This document shows, piece after piece, positions 3,695-17,530 of a stretch of 23,448 nt of DNA (position 1 is the first letter of the stretch; each line of letters opens with the position of its first letter). This stretch comes from a virus: positions 1-23,448 of IMG/VR virus record IMGVR_UViG_3300014501_000077; one strand, written 5' to 3'. The notes under the pieces are model-generated. The model worked only from the letters and a program-made list of their open reading frames with translations. It did no database searches and was not told the DNA's origin. The position numbers and the translations under genes are program-made.

Positions 3695-3922
3695 ATGGAT
3701 CTTGTAGCAAAAGCAAAAAGCCTTAAGCGGAAAACTCCAGATGTGATTAAGCCACAAGGGTTCCTGGAGCTTGCCATCGCCTACGCTAACGGAGATGTAA
3801 CTGCAAACCAAGGGTCTAAGGCGGCTGGGTTTAAACACATTAGTACCTTTGTTTCTTCCGCCTTTTACGAACTTCGCCGCGCCATCATAGATGGTGAGGT
3901 TAAGCTAATTGAGAAGGTATGA
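3695..3922 (+). CDS. Small HTH-like DNA-binding protein, copy 1
   Basis: 75 aa from ATG 3695. A basic N-terminus (MDLVAKAKSLKRKTPD) precedes a helical segment (ELAIAYANGDVTANQGSKAAGFK) that reads like a helix-turn-helix, so DNA binding is likely. The upstream in-frame ATG 3674 lies inside the promoter-like module, so 3695 is preferred; the mRNA would then have no leader. It is followed by a second, closely related gene whose start overlaps this stop (ATGA). It sits on the opposite strand to the head genes and may be a regulator. The target is unknown. Confidence 0.6.
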   Translation: MDLVAKAKSLKRKTPDVIKPQGFLELAIAYANGDVTANQGSKAAGFKHISTFVSSAFYELRRAIIDGEVKLIEKV

Positions 3923-4167
3923 CCATTATGAACGATCTGGAACCTATCGATCTTGTAGCAAAAGCAAAAAGCCTTAAGCGGAAAACTCCAGATAAGATTA
4001 GGCCACAAGGGTTCCTGGAGCTTGCCATCGCCTGTGCTAACGGAGATGTAACTGCAAACCGGGCCACCAAGGCGGCTGGGTTTAAGGGTGTAAATTGCTT
4101 TACCTACGCCGTCATTGTAGAACTTCGCCGCGCCATCGCGGAGGGTAAGGTTAAGCCAATTGAGAAG
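3698..4167 (+). repeat. Tandem gene duplication
   Basis: The coding sequence beginning at 3698 is repeated from 3949 (offset 251 nt). The first 45 nt are identical, followed by long identical blocks, such as the one encoding QGFLELAIA and the one encoding ELRRAI. The central segment differs most. This is a tandem duplication followed by divergence in the putative recognition region. Confidence 0.85.
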
Positions 4168-4176
4168 ATATTCTAA
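3919..4176 (+). CDS. Small HTH-like DNA-binding protein, copy 2
   Basis: 85 aa from ATG 3919, which overlaps the stop of copy 1 as ATGA, so translation is probably coupled; GAGAAGG precedes the start. It adds MTIMNDLEPI before the shared DLVAKAKSLKRKTPD start. The HTH-like core is kept but the part after it (RATKAAGFKGVNCFTYAVIV) differs from copy 1 (QGSKAAGFKHISTFVSSAFY), consistent with different specificity. The stop TAA (4174-4176) lies in the left target duplication of a 191-bp transposable element. Before that insertion the gene would have ended overlapping the portal stop codon. Confidence 0.6.
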   Translation: MTIMNDLEPIDLVAKAKSLKRKTPDKIRPQGFLELAIACANGDVTANRATKAAGFKGVNCFTYAVIVELRRAIAEGKVKPIEKIF

Positions 4177-4177
4177 G
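4170..4177. repeat. 8-bp target-site duplication, left copy
   Basis: ATTCTAAG directly abuts the left terminal inverted repeat and is repeated exactly at 4369-4376. It contains the TAA stop of the HTH copy 2 gene. Confidence 0.8.
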
Positions 4178-4342
4178 GGGATTTATATACATAAGTCCAG
4201 AGACCTTGGTATAGATTCTGAAGGACTTGGAAGTCCCGCAAGGAGCCGCGTTGTATGTTTCCTGTGAGTCGCGAAGAATTTCCTCGAACGCACTAATCTG
4301 CGCTTTCGTGGGCCTCAATCGCAACTCGTAGGATCTAAACAT
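4178..4342 (-). pseudogene. Truncated TnpB (IS200/IS605-type) N-terminal fragment
   Basis: From ATG 4342 the frame begins MFRSYELRLRPTKAQISAFE, then eilrdsqetYNAA, matching the typical TnpB start (a short strand, then L.PT..Q...., then a conserved YN). After about 33 residues the similarity ends and the remaining sequence looks like an element end, not a protein. The RuvC region and zinc finger are absent, so no nuclease can be made. The frame itself runs past the inverted repeat to a stop at 4153-4151, inside the HTH gene on the other strand. An internal deletion joining the tnpB start to a right end would explain it. Confidence 0.6.
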
Positions 4343-4368
4343 TGCCTGTAGTCATGTATATAATTCCC
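4178..4368 (-). mobile_element. 191-bp MITE-like element carrying a tnpB fragment
   Basis: The ends are 15-bp inverted repeats matching at 14 of 15 positions: GGGATTTATATACAT (4178-4192) and the complement of 4354-4368 (GGGAATTATATACAT). They are flanked by the 8-bp direct repeat ATTCTAAG. This is the signature of a DDE-type transposition. No transposase of that type is encoded, so it is non-autonomous. Inside is a minus-strand fragment of a TnpB N-terminus and small inverted repeats such as GGACT/AGTCC near 4224-4237. ISL3, IS256, IS66 and IS1595 families can give 8-bp duplications, but I cannot assign a family. Confidence 0.75.
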
Positions 4369-4376
4369 ATTCTAAG
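4369..4376. repeat. 8-bp target-site duplication, right copy
   Basis: ATTCTAAG follows the right terminal inverted repeat and equals 4170-4177. It contains the portal gene stop codon (TAG on the minus strand, 4374-4372), so the insertion left both convergent genes intact. Confidence 0.8.
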
Positions 4377-6231
4377 CGCCCTTCTTCTCCTGAGCGCTTC
4401 GCGGGGATTTCCCGACCGCACCTATGCCCATCTTATGCTCTGCCTGAAGTTGCTGCATAAGTTCTTCCGGGTTGGGTATTTCCAGAACTTTGTACAGGTA
4501 TTGCAATGGGATGGCTCCGCGAGCAAATAGCTGCATCGCGTAGTTCTTTGTCCGGTCTTTGCTGCCTCCGTGAACCGATCCAGGCATGACCTGGACGCCG
4601 AACTGTTTCCAGTGGTCCCACTTCGGCAAAGTTCTATCCGGGACGAGCGACCCTGGATCTAGGTCGTAGTCCTCTAGGGTTGTTCCGTCTGAGCCTAGAA
4701 TTCTTAGCCTCTGAGCGGCGGTATAAAATTGGAAAACGTTAGAAAGCGCCTGTTGGGCCATATCCCGCAAGAAAACTTCTATGTATCTTTCTTCAAGACG
4801 GGATGTTGTATTTAGCGAATCCCGCATCATATCGATGGTATCTCCCGCAGGAACTTGCTTTTTCTTAGACAAAGACCCGACATCTAAAGCGTTGGACATC
4901 CTGTCAAATTCAGGTACTAGATACTGCAAAAGAAGCTGGAAAACGTAGGCAGGGATCTCAGGAGGCGGCATGTACCGCAAATCCTGAGAAACGTTAGCCA
5001 TCGAGCCCATGTAAAGCTTTCCTCCAGGCATATCTGAATAGAATTCTTTCCACGCGGCTGGTGAAACAGAGCCCTGCTTAGCAATCGCCTGTGGGTTTAA
5101 GGCCCTCTTGGTCATATCCAACATGCCAGCTACGATATCGTTTATGGCCATGTTGATAGGAAGAAGGTTTCTATATGACCCTAGTCCCCAAAAACTCCAA
5201 GGTACCGGGTTTAGGCGCATACACGCAAACGGATACATTCCGTGCCAGAACGGCGATGGTCCGTCATACAACCTACGCCTACCGGCAAAAATTAGAAGTC
5301 TTTTCCTGGGATAAAGCCTTTCTCCTGGTTGAACCCAGTACCACCAGTTGTAACCGTCCAATGGCCAGTACGGGTGCCTCATGAGGACTGGTCTTCGGGA
5401 GTCATTTATGGAGTGGTCTTCTACGTACATCTCCTGATACTCTAGAGACTTAAATATAGAAGACTGCGCTTCTGGTGGAGGATTTGTTGACTGTCCCAAA
5501 GCTCGTTGCATAGCCGGGGAAAGGCCGTTCCACACGTATTCGTCTATATTGTCCGGTCGGGTGTATTTAGAATTTCCTGGACGAACATCGTAAGTACTGC
5601 CTTCCCGTTCTATTCCGGTTGAATCAAAAGGGAACTTTCTCTTCACCCAAGGGATTGCTTTCCAGGTCTTGTACAATACTCCGGTAGATTCTTGGATGTC
5701 AAAACCGGGTTGGACCGGCATAACGGAATCCGGACCACATGGTAACGCGCTCATCGAACCAGGATACGAGGCCCCTATCTTACTAAACCCGGTCCCGAAT
5801 AACTTGGTAATATCAGTCGTGGTGATAAGACTAAGGTCCATGTTCTTATCTAACCACTCGTGCTCGAAAATCTTTTTGATGATGTCTACTTGATGGACTA
5901 ATTCCGAGCGCTTGGTCGTTATGTCCATCGTCGGCCTTGTGTCGGTGAGAACCGCTAAATTGTCGGTTCTAGCCTTGTCCATGCGGTTGGCGAAGAAGCT
6001 GGACTTATATTTAGGTCGGCGGCGGTCCCAGAACTTTCCCGTGAGGGCTGAAATGTATTGCGGAACTTTGGCTAGTTCTTCGCTTAAACGTGCTGTGTCC
6101 TGGGCTTCCTTCCTGAACTCATCTTGCCAATACATCAACTTGCGGTCGTATCCCTCTTCGCGCACGGGTTTCGCTTCGGGACTATCGTCGTAGTACATCG
6201 GCGCTGTAGGGAGGTAGGAGCTATTACTCAT
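4372..6231 (-). CDS. Portal protein
   Basis: 619 aa, within the range for phage portal proteins, which form the dodecameric ring for DNA packaging and tail attachment. The N-terminal half is charged and helical (RKLMYWQDEFRKEAQD, NRMDKARTDNLAVLTDTRPT), followed by Trp/Tyr/Pro-rich strands (YWPLDGYNWWYWVQPGERL), then YRNLLPINMAINDIVAGMLDMTKRAL and a long helical C-terminal region, the usual order for portals. The Lys/Arg-rich tail ends SAQEKKGA. It overlaps the preceding zinc-ribbon gene by 8 nt, so the two are translationally linked. Its gene order with terminase and capsid supports the assignment. Confidence 0.75.
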   Translation of the reverse strand: MSNSSYLPTAPMYYDDSPEAKPVREEGYDRKLMYWQDEFRKEAQDTARLSEELAKVPQYISALTGKFWDRRRPKYKSSFFANRMDKARTDNLAVLTDTRPTMDITTKRSELVHQVDIIKKIFEHEWLDKNMDLSLITTTDITKLFGTGFSKIGASYPGSMSALPCGPDSVMPVQPGFDIQESTGVLYKTWKAIPWVKRKFPFDSTGIEREGSTYDVRPGNSKYTRPDNIDEYVWNGLSPAMQRALGQSTNPPPEAQSSIFKSLEYQEMYVEDHSINDSRRPVLMRHPYWPLDGYNWWYWVQPGERLYPRKRLLIFAGRRRLYDGPSPFWHGMYPFACMRLNPVPWSFWGLGSYRNLLPINMAINDIVAGMLDMTKRALNPQAIAKQGSVSPAAWKEFYSDMPGGKLYMGSMANVSQDLRYMPPPEIPAYVFQLLLQYLVPEFDRMSNALDVGSLSKKKQVPAGDTIDMMRDSLNTTSRLEERYIEVFLRDMAQQALSNVFQFYTAAQRLRILGSDGTTLEDYDLDPGSLVPDRTLPKWDHWKQFGVQVMPGSVHGGSKDRTKNYAMQLFARGAIPLQYLYKVLEIPNPEELMQQLQAEHKMGIGAVGKSPRSAQEKKGA

Positions 6232-8011: not shown

Positions 8012-8164
8012 ATGACGAATCAACAGTTTGATGTATGGTGGGGAACTTATTTTCACTTTCTGCGTGGGCTCACGCCCGATAACGCCAAAGAAGGAGCCAA
8101 CGCGGCTCTAGAGGCTTTTGACTCGGTTAACAAGGAACCTATAGCTCCCAATACTCAACAGTAG
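8012..8164 (+). CDS. 50-aa protein of unknown function
   Basis: ATG 8012 is preceded by AAAGGAG at 4 nt, one of the strongest ribosome sites in the window. The product starts MTNQQFDVWWGTYFHFLRGL and ends NTQQ. It is acidic and probably helical. It is second in a two-gene plus-strand operon, and its last 26 nt overlap the end of the large terminase gene on the other strand. Confidence 0.65.
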   Translation: MTNQQFDVWWGTYFHFLRGLTPDNAKEGANAALEAFDSVNKEPIAPNTQQ

Positions 8165-11100
8165 ACCCACGCTCCCGTTCCCACACCCCGGCGTCTTCTA
8201 GAAGCTGTTTAGGATCGGCTTTTAGCCCTTTAAACGCCTTCGTGGAGGTTATCATCAACCTGATGGAGCCACATTTCTCGTTGCCGCATTTAAGGTTTTG
8301 CTCGCCCTCCATTGGGATTAAATTAGTGAAGTCTTTGTGTCCGCACACTACACATTGAACGGTGTAGGTGCAATCTTCCGGCTGGGACTGTTTAGATAAC
8401 GGGATATATCCGCGCGTCTCGTCGAACATGCCTTCGTAGGCGCACCACAGAGCTATCATCGTAGCGATTAGTTCGTCGTCCTTAGAATCACTGTCTGCGC
8501 CTGCCATGCGGTCATCATAATCATCCTTGACGAAGTTTTTCATCTCCTCCGCTGTGTTAGAAGACCGCACGAAGAACATTCTGTACTCCAAGAACCTCCT
8601 AAGGTTTTGATGCAACCTGGAGCGAGAAAGTAGATTCGTAAACCAGCCTAACTTTTGCGACAATGGCTGGATGGAATCCATGTGTTTCCAACGATATAAA
8701 TTAGGGTACTGAATGTTGCTTCTTAGCCAAGTCAGAACCGTATCATAGCGGTTTACTTCTACCGAAATCTCAGCCTCATTGTAGTATCGTCCTAGCTTTG
8801 CTAGCTCCTCCGCGAAATTTTGTGGTCCGATCTGATTTGATCTCCACACCGCCACTTGATATGTAGGGCCAATACTAGGTCCGCCAGCCATCTTTATAAC
8901 ACATCCAACACTAAAATCGCAATTGCCGCCAAGGCCCTCCGAAACGTCTGCTCCAACGTAGTATGTAGAGCCTGGATCTGGATATTCCCATATAAGAAGC
9001 GGGCAAAAATCATGAGAATGATCCTCTTCGCATTCCTCGATAATGCAATGGATCGTCTTCGGATCTATATCTTGCGTTACTGGATCTAGTTTAGCTAGTT
9101 TTGGATCAATGGCGTGAATGCGACCAGCTATGTCAAAAAAGCCTTTCAAGATGGGGTGTCTAACCTGCTCACTTGCGAAATCTTGAGCTACCTTACCGAA
9201 AACTTGATAACCACTAACCTGAAAGGCCTCCTCGACGGAGTTGTGGACCATGATCCCATTGCATCCAAAGCGATGAACGTCTTGTACGGTCAAGTCGTGA
9301 ACACGTTCGGAACCAGATGGTATTACTGATGCAATAGTATCTTCCATCTCATTATTAAAGGCACCCTTCCTCCTAGGCGGACGAACTGATCCGGTGGTGC
9401 GCTTGCGTTCGCTTATGAAGCCAACCTCGCGATGAAATACGTTAGATGATTCCGATTTCATTTGAAGATTATTGCCGTGATATGTTCTCCACAGCCCGGT
9501 CTCTTCATCTATTTTTTTCTTGTCCTCTGAGCAAATATGGGAATTGACTCCGCATCCAAGCAGAAGCAGTTGCACGTCCATCGCAAACTGATCCCATTTA
9601 GTAAAGAAAACAGTCTTTGGTGAGTCGCGGTAAGCGTGACCATCACATTCGATTAGCGCAGACAAGAATTGCCGCACGACTGGCTTTGGGCTTCTCCATA
9701 TACATTCCGGAACATGCACCAGCCGCCTCCAACTGCCGCATTCATAAGGAGCTATTAGCCCCAATCCAACAAGCATCCTACGCCATAGAGTATTATTGGA
9801 TCGTATGTCGGTTCTACCGTTGTAGTGGCTTATCAGCGGAGGGCTACCGACTATCCGCTCTAGCAGCGCCGCTACGTCGCCAACTACATCTTGATCTTTG
9901 CGATCCATAGTGACCTTAACGCCATCTTTACATAGACAACCGTCACCCATAAAATATCCAAGAAATCTACCCCAATCTTCGTCTATTTTTATAGACATCT
10001 TACAAGTGGGCGTATACATCCATTCGGCGGTATAATAATCCTCGACGAATCGAGGCGGGGAAAGCTGGATAACGTCTCCCTTGGATAGCTCCCTAGCCTC
10101 TAGCCATTCACCAGATTTAAGCAGAAACTTATGGTCGTGAGTGCAGCGCACCCTTCTGCCAAATTTAGTAGATACCTCAACCACCTCGCGGATTCCGTTG
10201 TCAAACCACTGAGTTACCGTGCCAGTCTCAGTGGCCTTGGCTGCCCTAGCCTCATCAATCCTGATTATTCCCAGATCGGTGCCAACCCGGCTATCGCCCG
10301 TTATACACCCGGCCTGTTCTTGCAGAAGTGTCTTTTGTGATCTTTCATCGCCGCGAGAGTTGTTTCTGCGGTCCTGCATCCATGCTAATTGATCGTCCGT
10401 TAAAATAAGCGGCTCAAGCGAACCAATTGCGCATGATGGACATACTTCATTAGCTTGGTCGATGTTGCACGTCCAGCGATTAAAGTACTTTTTGCAGGAT
10501 TCCTCAACGCATCTCACCCATTCGTTCTGAGCCTTTTCTCTCATGGATAACACGTCGCGGTCGTAGTACTGCCCGCTTGGGCTCAAAATCACATGGGTTC
10601 GGTCTACGAACCAAGGCAGAAATAGTGGGCTCCATTCTGATTTCTCGGCTAGCTGTTCACAACGCTTCCAAAAACGGTGAGAGTAGTTATTCGCACCCTT
10701 AGCTGTAGACTCCAGAAATGCAAAGGCTTCATCCATCAACGCCGGTTGCAAATCTTCTTCGATGACTTCTCTAGCAACATGCTCCGGCCAATCACACCAC
10801 TCCGACAGATGGGCCGCGCTAATTCTATACCCCTGAGCCACTCCACTAGCGGAGTTGGCTCCGCGAAGCATGACTTGGCTTTGCGTGCCGGGGTCGTGGC
10901 GGCGAGAATCTGGATTTGGGTTGTCGAATTTTAGGCCGCTTTCTAGTGTTCTACTGGATACACGCGGCTTTATCCACCAAGGGCACTTATCATAAATGCG
11001 CAGCATTATTCCGAGAAGTTCCTTGGTGTGGTCCCGATTATAGGAAACAACAAGACCAATTCGGTTGGTGAAAAACATCGTGTCCCAGGCCACTAGCGCT

Positions 11101-11462
11101 TCAATTAAAGTTGAGCATCCCAACCTGCGGGATTTCACAGTCACCACTCTTTGTTTCTTTCCTTTTGCCTTTAGTTCCAATAGCCTAGCGTAAATAAGCT
11201 CCTGGGAATCCCATAAGCAAAAGGGGGTTTCATTGCCGCGATCATCAGCTATCCAGAAGTAGTTCCTGGCGGCATATACGAAATCGTCGCGGCACTTTTT
11301 AACTTCTCCCTCTATTGCCAGCAACTCGGGGGAAGAAAGCAGACTCCACGGACTTTCTTCCTCCTCTATAGCGCGCTGCTCCAGAGCGTCCATGTGCTCT
11401 ATCAGGTCCGCAACAGCAAGATCCCTATACCATCTAGACCTAGGCTCTTGAATGCTAAACAT
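8139..11462 (-). CDS. terL: Terminase large subunit interrupted by an intein
   Basis: 1107 codons; the host protein without the intein is 751 aa. The ATPase domain has a Walker A-like KSRRLGCST (about 110-118), HLSEWCDW (218-225) as a possible Walker B region, and ESTAKG (251-256), a typical coupling motif. The nuclease domain has candidate metal-binding acids D839 (VGADVSEG), E902 (SVEVNRYD) and D995/D996 (DSKDDELIA). The C-terminus ends in a zinc ribbon (C1037, C1040, C1059, C1064). It cuts and pumps DNA into the head through the portal. An intein (residues 386-741) splits it in QEQAG/SVEEAFQVSG. The start overlaps the previous gene by 8 nt. Confidence 0.9.
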   Translation of the reverse strand: MFSIQEPRSRWYRDLAVADLIEHMDALEQRAIEEEESPWSLLSSPELLAIEGEVKKCRDDFVYAARNYFWIADDRGNETPFCLWDSQELIYARLLELKAKGKKQRVVTVKSRRLGCSTLIEALVAWDTMFFTNRIGLVVSYNRDHTKELLGIMLRIYDKCPWWIKPRVSSRTLESGLKFDNPNPDSRRHDPGTQSQVMLRGANSASGVAQGYRISAAHLSEWCDWPEHVAREVIEEDLQPALMDEAFAFLESTAKGANNYSHRFWKRCEQLAEKSEWSPLFLPWFVDRTHVILSPSGQYYDRDVLSMREKAQNEWVRCVEESCKKYFNRWTCNIDQANEVCPSCAIGSLEPLILTDDQLAWMQDRRNNSRGDERSQKTLLQEQAGCITGDSRVGTDLGIIRIDEARAAKATETGTVTQWFDNGIREVVEVSTKFGRRVRCTHDHKFLLKSGEWLEARELSKGDVIQLSPPRFVEDYYTAEWMYTPTCKMSIKIDEDWGRFLGYFMGDGCLCKDGVKVTMDRKDQDVVGDVAALLERIVGSPPLISHYNGRTDIRSNNTLWRRMLVGLGLIAPYECGSWRRLVHVPECIWRSPKPVVRQFLSALIECDGHAYRDSPKTVFFTKWDQFAMDVQLLLLGCGVNSHICSEDKKKIDEETGLWRTYHGNNLQMKSESSNVFHREVGFISERKRTTGSVRPPRRKGAFNNEMEDTIASVIPSGSERVHDLTVQDVHRFGCNGIMVHNSVEEAFQVSGYQVFGKVAQDFASEQVRHPILKGFFDIAGRIHAIDPKLAKLDPVTQDIDPKTIHCIIEECEEDHSHDFCPLLIWEYPDPGSTYYVGADVSEGLGGNCDFSVGCVIKMAGGPSIGPTYQVAVWRSNQIGPQNFAEELAKLGRYYNEAEISVEVNRYDTVLTWLRSNIQYPNLYRWKHMDSIQPLSQKLGWFTNLLSRSRLHQNLRRFLEYRMFFVRSSNTAEEMKNFVKDDYDDRMAGADSDSKDDELIATMIALWCAYEGMFDETRGYIPLSKQSQPEDCTYTVQCVVCGHKDFTNLIPMEGEQNLKCGNEKCGSIRLMITSTKAFKGLKADPKQLLEDAGVWERERGSTVEYWEL
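9240..10307 (-). other. Intein with LAGLIDADG homing endonuclease inside terL
   Basis: 356 codons from Cys386 (CITGDSRVGT) to Asn741 (GCNGIMVHN), followed by Ser742, the expected +1 residue. Splicing blocks: N-terminal Cys block, THDHKFL (441-447, with the usual TxxH), a C-terminal block RVHDLTVQDVHRFGC, and the final His-Asn. An endonuclease domain lies between: GYFMGDG (502-508) and LIECDG (603-608) are the two LAGLIDADG motifs, both with their aspartates. It looks able to splice and possibly to cut. The insertion point lies in the TerL motif QEQAG/SVEEAF that precedes the nuclease domain. Confidence 0.9.
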
Positions 11463-16161: not shown

Positions 16162-16941
16162 TTACGAGGCCGTGATCCTTTTTAAATTTGCCACCATAGA
16201 CGCCATCGGTACACCTCCGGGAGTTGATCCGCTTGGAGTCATCCAGTCCTGGGAGAGAAGCGCGTAAGCTTCCGAACAGTAAGTATAAATCCAACTCCAC
16301 GTTGCCAGCTTGATGGAGCCCCACGTAATTAACCCAACATATCTTGGATCTGCAACTACGCCCAAGACGCAATGCCCACCCCAACTTCCGGGCTCACCGT
16401 CCCCGGTTGCGCCACCGGCAGGAACGTCCCAAATATCTTGATCTTGCGCTGAAATAGGAAGTTCTACACCCAAATACGCTCCACCGAAATAATGGATTGC
16501 ATCGCGCATCTGGATAGCGCTTTGTGGGTTTACGCCTACGAAACCATCGATTTTATGGCCGAATATACCGCCGCTTTGCCACGTCGTTAAAAGATCCGAC
16601 TCTACGCCTCCGTTGTCCGTACTGGGATCTCCAGGGACGTATCCGCAAAGCCTGCTGTATTCTGCAATTACCTGAGCATCTGTAGGTACAACCGGGGCTC
16701 CGGTCAGTGTAGTCCACAACTGAAGTAAATGAGAAATACCAGCAATGGTGCAATCGCCTAAAGTATCGTTTGCATCCATTGGCCATGATGTTACTCCAGG
16801 CTTTTCTTGATAGCCTTTATACCAACCCACAGCGGGAGGCGGCTCTGGTAGCCCAGCCGTCAGGGACGCCAGCATCCTCATTCCCTTAGGATGTACGGCC
16901 TTCTTCTTGCCTAATTTAAAAATACTCGGATCGTGGATCAC
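16162..16941 (-). CDS. Papain-fold-like cysteine peptidase candidate
   Basis: 259 aa. C64 in LGDCTIAGISHLLQLW and H190 in WGGHCVLGVV match the cysteine and histidine of papain-like (C1/C39-type) enzymes. The expected Asn-Ser-Trp-Gly is represented only by LITWGS (about 204-209), so the third residue is uncertain. No signal peptide is evident. Its start overlaps the stop of the DUF2778-type gene by 4 nt (ATGA), which couples them. It could cut peptide crosslinks in the cell wall or act on another substrate. Catalysis is inferred from motifs only. Confidence 0.5.
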   Translation of the reverse strand: MIHDPSIFKLGKKKAVHPKGMRMLASLTAGLPEPPPAVGWYKGYQEKPGVTSWPMDANDTLGDCTIAGISHLLQLWTTLTGAPVVPTDAQVIAEYSRLCGYVPGDPSTDNGGVESDLLTTWQSGGIFGHKIDGFVGVNPQSAIQMRDAIHYFGGAYLGVELPISAQDQDIWDVPAGGATGDGEPGSWGGHCVLGVVADPRYVGLITWGSIKLATWSWIYTYCSEAYALLSQDWMTPSGSTPGGVPMASMVANLKRITAS

Positions 16942-17366
16942 GCTGTTACCTCAAGTTTATTATCTCCTGCTTTCTGCCTGTTTGCAATGTTTAACCATGC
17001 GGCGTAAGTGACCGCTACTATACAGCCGTCCGATGAGTTTCTACCTGCTGGCGTTCCCAGCATCCCGGCATCGCGTTTAGAATTTTTACAATGTATTCCA
17101 AAACTGGACCTGCCAAACATTTGGTTAGCTGGATCGGGGGTTAACCACATCACCGGGCCAAGGTGTTGATCTACCGTAGGATCTCCAATTGAGTAGGAGC
17201 CCTGCGGAAGTGGTCCCGTATTGTGTTGGTCCTGGAAAGCGCTATTATTTACGGCTTCCGGAACTAATCCTGCGTCCCCCCCGGCGTAGAAATCACCAGG
17301 ATTACTTATCTGGCTTCCGGAATCTTCAGTAAATAAAGCATTGGTTTGACCGTATGTCATTCTCAT
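16938..17366 (-). CDS. DUF2778/Tlde1-like L,D-transpeptidase-fold protein
   Basis: 142 aa. GPLPQGSYSI (51-60), MWLTPDPANQMFGRSSFGIH (73-92) and GRNSSDGCIV (108-117) follow the DUF2778 order of G-P-P-G-Y, P-N-MFGR-F-IH and S-GC. H92 and C115 are the likely catalytic pair of the L,D-transpeptidase fold. Known Tlde1 enzymes act on peptidoglycan tetrapeptides in the periplasm. In a phage this may weaken the wall at lysis or entry. There is no N-terminal signal peptide, so delivery is unclear. Start ATG 17366 overlaps the stop of the 55-aa gene as ATGA. Confidence 0.65.
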   Translation of the reverse strand: MRMTYGQTNALFTEDSGSQISNPGDFYAGGDAGLVPEAVNNSAFQDQHNTGPLPQGSYSIGDPTVDQHLGPVMWLTPDPANQMFGRSSFGIHCKNSKRDAGMLGTPAGRNSSDGCIVAVTYAAWLNIANRQKAGDNKLEVTA

Positions 17367-17530
17367 GTATATAATTCCCTAGTATTAGTACTTTGTTCAC
17401 AAAGAATTAATACGTAATGTTCTTCGTTAAAATGCTTAGATACTGCTCCGGCAAAGTCTCCTACTGCATCTATGATGTCATTGGTATTGCCTTCTACCAC
17501 TATTTGAACTGTGATTAACATTTTTGCCAT
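17363..17530 (-). CDS. 55-aa small protein, unknown function
   Basis: ATG 17530 opens MAKMLITVQIVVEGNTNDII and the frame ends in ELYT with TGA 17365-17363, overlapping the next start (ATGA), which implies coupled translation with the DUF2778-type gene. A GGTGAG-like ribosome site lies just upstream. A mixed hydrophobic and acidic pattern (DAVGDFAGAVSKHFNEEHYV) suggests a small folded alpha/beta protein. Confidence 0.6.
   Translation of the reverse strand: MAKMLITVQIVVEGNTNDIIDAVGDFAGAVSKHFNEEHYVLILCEQSTNTRELYT

Follow-up and report, generated by a model that had tools for sequence, protein, structure and literature searches.

A 191-bp mini-element with IS1595-type ends and tnpB remnants lies at two overlapping stop codons in a phage record

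Cas12 descends from TnpB, which in bacteria is known from IS200/IS605 and IS607 elements. TnpB-only elements (IS1341-like, placed under IS200/IS605) have tnpB as the main gene and no tnpA, and together with IS200/IS605 and IS607 elements they have been described without inverted repeats or target duplications (PMC3627910). In eukaryotes, the TnpB relative Fanzor1 rides as a passenger in DDE-type and other DNA transposons, including Mariner, Helitron, IS4-like, Sola, and MuDr (PMC3627910). The IS1595 family (ISApl4/IS1016 group, tISCpe8, and MTnSag1) has a zinc-ribbon DDE transposase, ends that start with GGG, A/T-rich 8-bp duplications, and passenger genes (PMC12561309, PMC5704250). ISApl4 shows such duplications with ends starting in GGGG (PMC12561309), and IS1595 elements that carry passenger genes are already known (PMC5704250). 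We found no description of TnpB together with IS1595 or other DDE transposases in bacteria in the open-licence literature, which was judged mostly at the title or abstract level. Since bacterial TnpB-only elements have been described without inverted repeats and duplications, tnpB as IS1595 cargo looks new. The phage elements studied here share the four IS1595 features listed above. Unlike known IS1595 elements, the element in our phage record has no transposase, its cargo was tnpB, and its subgroup resides in uncultivated phages. It resembles TnpB-only elements in having had tnpB as its main gene with no tnpA. Unlike these, as they are described in PMC3627910, it has inverted repeats, and both this element and four full-length relatives have duplications. 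It also resembles the Fanzor1 transposons in its passenger, but here a bacterial protein was carried by a prokaryotic IS1595-type element in phages.

The window, that is, the whole stretch of DNA that was analysed, comprises 23,448 nucleotides of the IMG/VR record IMGVR_UViG_3300014501_000077. The 191-bp element occupies positions 4178..4368 and is flanked by two exact copies of the 8-bp sequence ATTCTAAG, at 4170..4177 and 4369..4376. Its ends, GGGATTTATATACATAAGTCCAG and GGGAATTATATACATGACTACAG, agree at 14/15 positions over the outer 15 bp. The preliminary description had reported these repeats and the exact duplication; both hold, and the repeats extend to 23 bp at 19/23. The repeat at the tnpB 3' end lies at 4178..4200 (plus strand) and that at the tnpB 5' end at 4346..4368 (minus strand). 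A repeat finder returned a 26-nt inverted pair at 81% once flanking bases were counted. Compared with the 22-bp family consensus GGGNNTTATATACWTRACTNCC, the two ends scored 20/22 and 21/22, the higher score belonging to the tnpB 5' end. The top consensus score in 200 shuffles of the window, tested on one strand, was 19, and it occurred once. Duplications of 8 bp were frequent among elements with GGGNNTTATATACWTRACTNCC-type ends. A solo copy of the repeat, exact at 15/15, was also present at 17365..17379 (minus strand), at the start of ORF 16938-17366. No partner end was found for it, and it is possibly the relic of another insertion of the same family. Elsewhere in the window, Pfam matches identified a large terminase subunit with an intein bearing a LAGLIDADG domain (8139-11462, minus strand).

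The insert is short, has inverted ends and a target duplication, and lacks a transposase, as do miniature inverted-repeat elements (MITEs). Such elements are also expected in multiple copies per genome, but the insert was present as a single copy in the 23-kb record, which is possibly a partial phage genome. Its ends start with GGG, as in IS1595 elements, and are common to transposase-bearing copies. Its A/T-rich target duplication has the 8-bp length of that family, and the phage family gives equal length. No DDE_Tnp_IS1595 transposase was detected in the insert or in the whole record; relatives with the same ends have one. The insert is therefore an IS1595 derivative and not a full member, because the transposase is missing, as expected of a mini-element.

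We then determined the tnpB content of the insert. Codons 1-33 (MFRSYELRLRPTKAQISAFEEILRDSQETYNAA) lie at 4244..4342 on the minus strand, and the closest phage TnpBs share 70-76% identity with them at their N-termini. A phage TnpB HMM matched the six-frame translation of the window with an E-value of 5.5e-13 over model positions 1-46, and the similarity to the closest TnpB relatives began at residue 1 and ended at about residue 33. The fragment gave no match when used as a single query; a small alignment of TnpB N-termini did find relatives. These results agree with the earlier claim that a tnpB start lies within the element. That claim had overlooked the 3' end of tnpB, which is present on the minus strand in another frame at about 4183..4243 (ending in LAGLPSPSESIPRSLDLCI and a stop). 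This assignment is based on alignment to the 3' ends of full-length elements, and the break point is approximate. The last ~20 codons are retained, the frame ends in ..LDLCI, and its stop codon (TAA) falls within the inverted repeat. This stretch may possibly include the last part of a tnpB guide RNA. A TnpB nuclease has a RuvC catalytic core and a TNB domain; the insert retains residues 1-33 and the C-terminal tail only. Because tnpB is represented by both its start and its end, the insert is an internally deleted tnpB element and not a chance fusion of a tnpB start with some other element.

Full-length tnpB genes (1.1-1.4 kb) were found between the same ends in IMG/VR phage contigs, and four of these elements had 7-8/8 duplications. 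They lie in L018 (3585-4982, duplication AATTAAAT, 8/8), L179 (3859-5154, 8/8), L321 (2157-3334, 8/8), and L134 (1863-3204, 7/8). The 3' end of the insert aligned with the tnpB 3' ends of full-length elements, and the tnpB 3' end and its inverted repeat were arranged alike in L014, L018, L117, L125, L133, and L179. PF01385 and PF07282 were present in the two full-length TnpBs tested by Pfam, and the aligned TnpBs have invariant residues where a TnpB RuvC core is expected to have them. The closest TnpB in a host genome, from a Bryobacterales (Acidobacteriota) assembly, was 73% identical to that of L019; no GGGNNTTATATACWTRACTNCC-type ends were found beside this tnpB copy. An independent 298-bp tnpB mini-element with GGGGCTTATATAC ends was found in an acidobacterial genome (L222). 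It retains the start and the 3' end of tnpB, with a TnpB start ending in ..RLYN fused to a C-terminal ..RDHNAAIN.., and no duplication was present in its flanks. This second case suggests that internal deletions of tnpB elements recur. Some elements also have a small ORF before tnpB (L018 3585-3804, L117 3789-4000, and L019 2991-3241) in which several cysteines accompany a GGRPR motif; its product is perhaps a DNA-binding protein.

A pattern scan of IMG/VR with the 22-bp end returned at least 120 stretches. Of 90 end pairs classified, 36 enclosed an IS1595-family DDE transposase by HMM (some of them broken), 15 tnpB sequence, and 39 other cargo; the set includes a few spurious pairs, and its tnpB count is inflated by a tnpB-directed search. 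Duplications of 7-8/8 were present in 57 of these pairs. Another scan targeted ends in ..ACTACA and gave 11 stretches, nine of them with an element bearing an 8/8 duplication. One family transposase was tested and matched PF12762 (DDE_Tnp_IS1595, E 5.7e-47) and PF12760 (E 3.1e-9). The cargo comprised several N6/N4 DNA methyltransferases, two C5 methylase-like proteins, one PAPS-reductase-like protein, and a weak Dam-like protein below the Pfam cut-off, and many small family elements contained a single gene. The IMG/VR contigs L228-L356 show that this family with IS1595-type ends is large in phages; many of its elements hold one gene, for instance a DNA methyltransferase, and cargo ORFs often terminate within the inverted repeat (..CI before the stop). 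L130, a phage contig that also has a tnpB element, carries a 383-bp element (60-442) with GTAAAAAA duplications. The 95-aa ORF of this 383-bp element (MSWSVSACG..) has similar ORFs in elements of L306 and L348. The preliminary description had called a TnpB fragment in a DDE-type element an unusual chimera. As tnpB was a recurrent cargo, in a set that the tnpB-directed search enriches for it, the combination is unusual but not unique.

Family transposases were found in three of 50,697 deposited phage records, all at ≤37% identity, so that the transposase of the phage subgroup has no close relative there. In Acidobacteriota, 5/61 genomes of one class had transposases sharing 63-68% identity with the phage enzyme. 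Four of the five lay between paired family ends, and 8/8 duplications accompanied three of these. At the fifth locus (L374) a single clear end was present. The end pattern was found in 6/396 Acidobacteriota genomes, which indicates that such ends are sparse in hosts. The duplication was missing from 11/15 tnpB-bearing end pairs and from 22/75 others (p 0.002; the two groups come from different searches), and some tnpB-bearing pairs may therefore have spread or rearranged by another route. The simplest idea is an exchange between copies in co-infecting phages.

We conclude that the insert is very probably a miniature, internally deleted tnpB element of an IS1595-type phage transposon family, inserted by a transposase acting in trans. 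The ends, the duplication, the two tnpB remnants, the full-length tnpB relatives, and the IS1595 transposases between the same ends can all be read from the sequences compared. The preliminary description had proposed a DDE-type mini-element without transposase that holds a tnpB fragment, and relatives with the same ends support it, having full-length tnpB and 8-bp duplications or an IS1595-type DDE transposase. The probable parent of the insert lacked a transposase, measured about 1.2-1.4 kb, and carried tnpB between two inverted repeats. Loss of about 1 kb from its interior would have left only the first 33 and last ~20 codons of tnpB. An IS1595 transposase from elsewhere, either another phage element or the host, would then have recognised the ends, inserted the element, and copied 8 bp. 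As this record has no transposase, the ends are the basis for naming the mobiliser, and an IS1595 transposase in trans is the likely one. The order of events, deletion before insertion, and a present lack of function would follow from the same reading.

It is also conceivable, but unlikely, that the insert was retained because it is functional. Either a transcript running through its tnpB 3' end would supply a TnpB elsewhere with a guide RNA, or its paired ends would act as a two-way terminator of the convergent genes. The minus strand of the insert folds better than shuffled sequences (z -5.4), although part of the folding energy comes from the inverted repeats. In full-length elements, the tnpB reading frame frequently stops within or close to the inverted repeat, and the 3' end forms a hairpin (conserved GCTC-GGGAT-GAGC) with compensatory changes. 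Base pairing is also possible between GUAUA of the inverted repeat and a UAUAC-type motif lying upstream, with loops of variable length in between. The corresponding TRTAC motif was present in 10/16 tnpB right ends and in 5/106 ends of other elements, with a p-value of 1e-7 that is overstated because the sequences are related. This suggests that the putative guide RNA extends to the element end. The insert kept the TRTAC...GTATA pairing, and the L222 mini-element likewise retained both tnpB ends. However, the GCTC-GGGAT-GAGC hairpin is lost from the insert and a matching TnpB is absent from the record. An Rfam search gave no match. For the full-length parents, we tentatively consider that the IS1595-type repeat might double as the 3' stem of the guide RNA used by TnpB, with the duplicated target and flank as the guide. 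TnpB might then cleave sites from which the element has gone, an RNA-guided nuclease captured by a DDE transposon as an anti-loss or homing device; we regard this as possible but doubtful. If it is true, the excess of tnpB-bearing end pairs without duplication would match spread by cut-and-repair.

We rejected as highly improbable an IS200/IS605-type origin, in which the insert would derive from a TnpB-only or palindrome-associated element mobilised by the single-strand transposase TnpA. Its tnpB is typical of IS200/IS605 and IS607, and the duplication-less tnpB-bearing pairs would fit it as well, but the insert has both inverted repeats and an exact duplication, which those elements are described as lacking, and the same ends flank a DDE transposase in other elements, so this origin is largely refuted. 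Short repeats alone can occur by chance in a phage intergenic region, but chance is refuted as next to impossible by consensus scores above all shuffles, the HMM match to tnpB, and the existence of full-length relatives.

The mini-element lies between two convergent genes. An 85-aa gene without Pfam or PHROG match, called an HTH gene in the preliminary description, occupies 3919..4176 on the plus strand and stops inside the left duplication. The portal protein gene (4372..6231, minus strand) stops inside the right one. When the flanks are joined without the insert, they read AAGATATTCTAAGCGCCC, in which the TAA of the plus-strand gene and the TAG of the portal gene (complement of CTA) share two bases. 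With the insert, the stops are separate (4174-4176 and 4372-4374). Insertion at two overlapping stops, leaving each gene its own, thus stands as first described. A small gene (..LVAKAKSLKRKTP..QGFLELAIA..) occurs twice in tandem beside the insert, at 3711-3922 and 3955-4176 (plus strand); among the related phages examined, nothing after the portal matched the second copy.

We next examined the targets of 50 family elements with a joinable empty site, with ORFs called mechanically, so that the figures are approximate. Targets overlapped the stop codon of a flanking ORF in 14/50 elements; the corresponding figure was 1.4% for random positions and 3.7% for AT-rich 8-mers. Insertions inside ORFs were below expectation (40% vs 72% for AT-rich 8-mers). 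Base counts showed that family targets are AT-rich and symmetric, and several are CTAA/TTAG-like. The family as a whole is biased towards stop codons; the insert in the window is no isolated case but was the only one with two stops in one target. Both a target preference and the loss of gene-damaging insertions probably lie behind this bias. The element probably came to sit on two overlapping stops because the family favours AT-rich, often stop-like sites and because gene-breaking insertions get lost.

We also compared the locus with related phages. A capsid protein search gave ten relatives of this phage at 60-83% identity, and the portal used as a single query gave none. Four portal-bearing relatives (L357, L358, L365, and L366) had neither the insert nor the 85-aa gene after the portal. 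As the 191 bp are missing from these four, they are not conserved phage sequence, the case that would have spoken against a mobile element. A stretch near 5430 in L357-L364 resembles an end but was rejected as an insert at the same place, being coding sequence inside the portal. The search for full-length parents and empty sites suggested earlier succeeded in part. It found full-length tnpB relatives with the same ends, but blastn of the insert against phages and plasmids gave no match, and neither an uninterrupted ATTCTAAG junction nor an intact empty site was found among the portal-bearing relatives examined. The exact left end of the insert was likewise not found in viral contigs, where near records possibly lay outside the search.

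These results suggest that TnpB can switch its transposon partner in prokaryotes, as Fanzor did in eukaryotes. They also reveal a large family of phage cargo transposons, carrying tnpB, DNA methyltransferases, and other genes, that is not described in the literature searched. Its frequent settling on stop codons is a way for a compact phage genome to gain genes with none broken.
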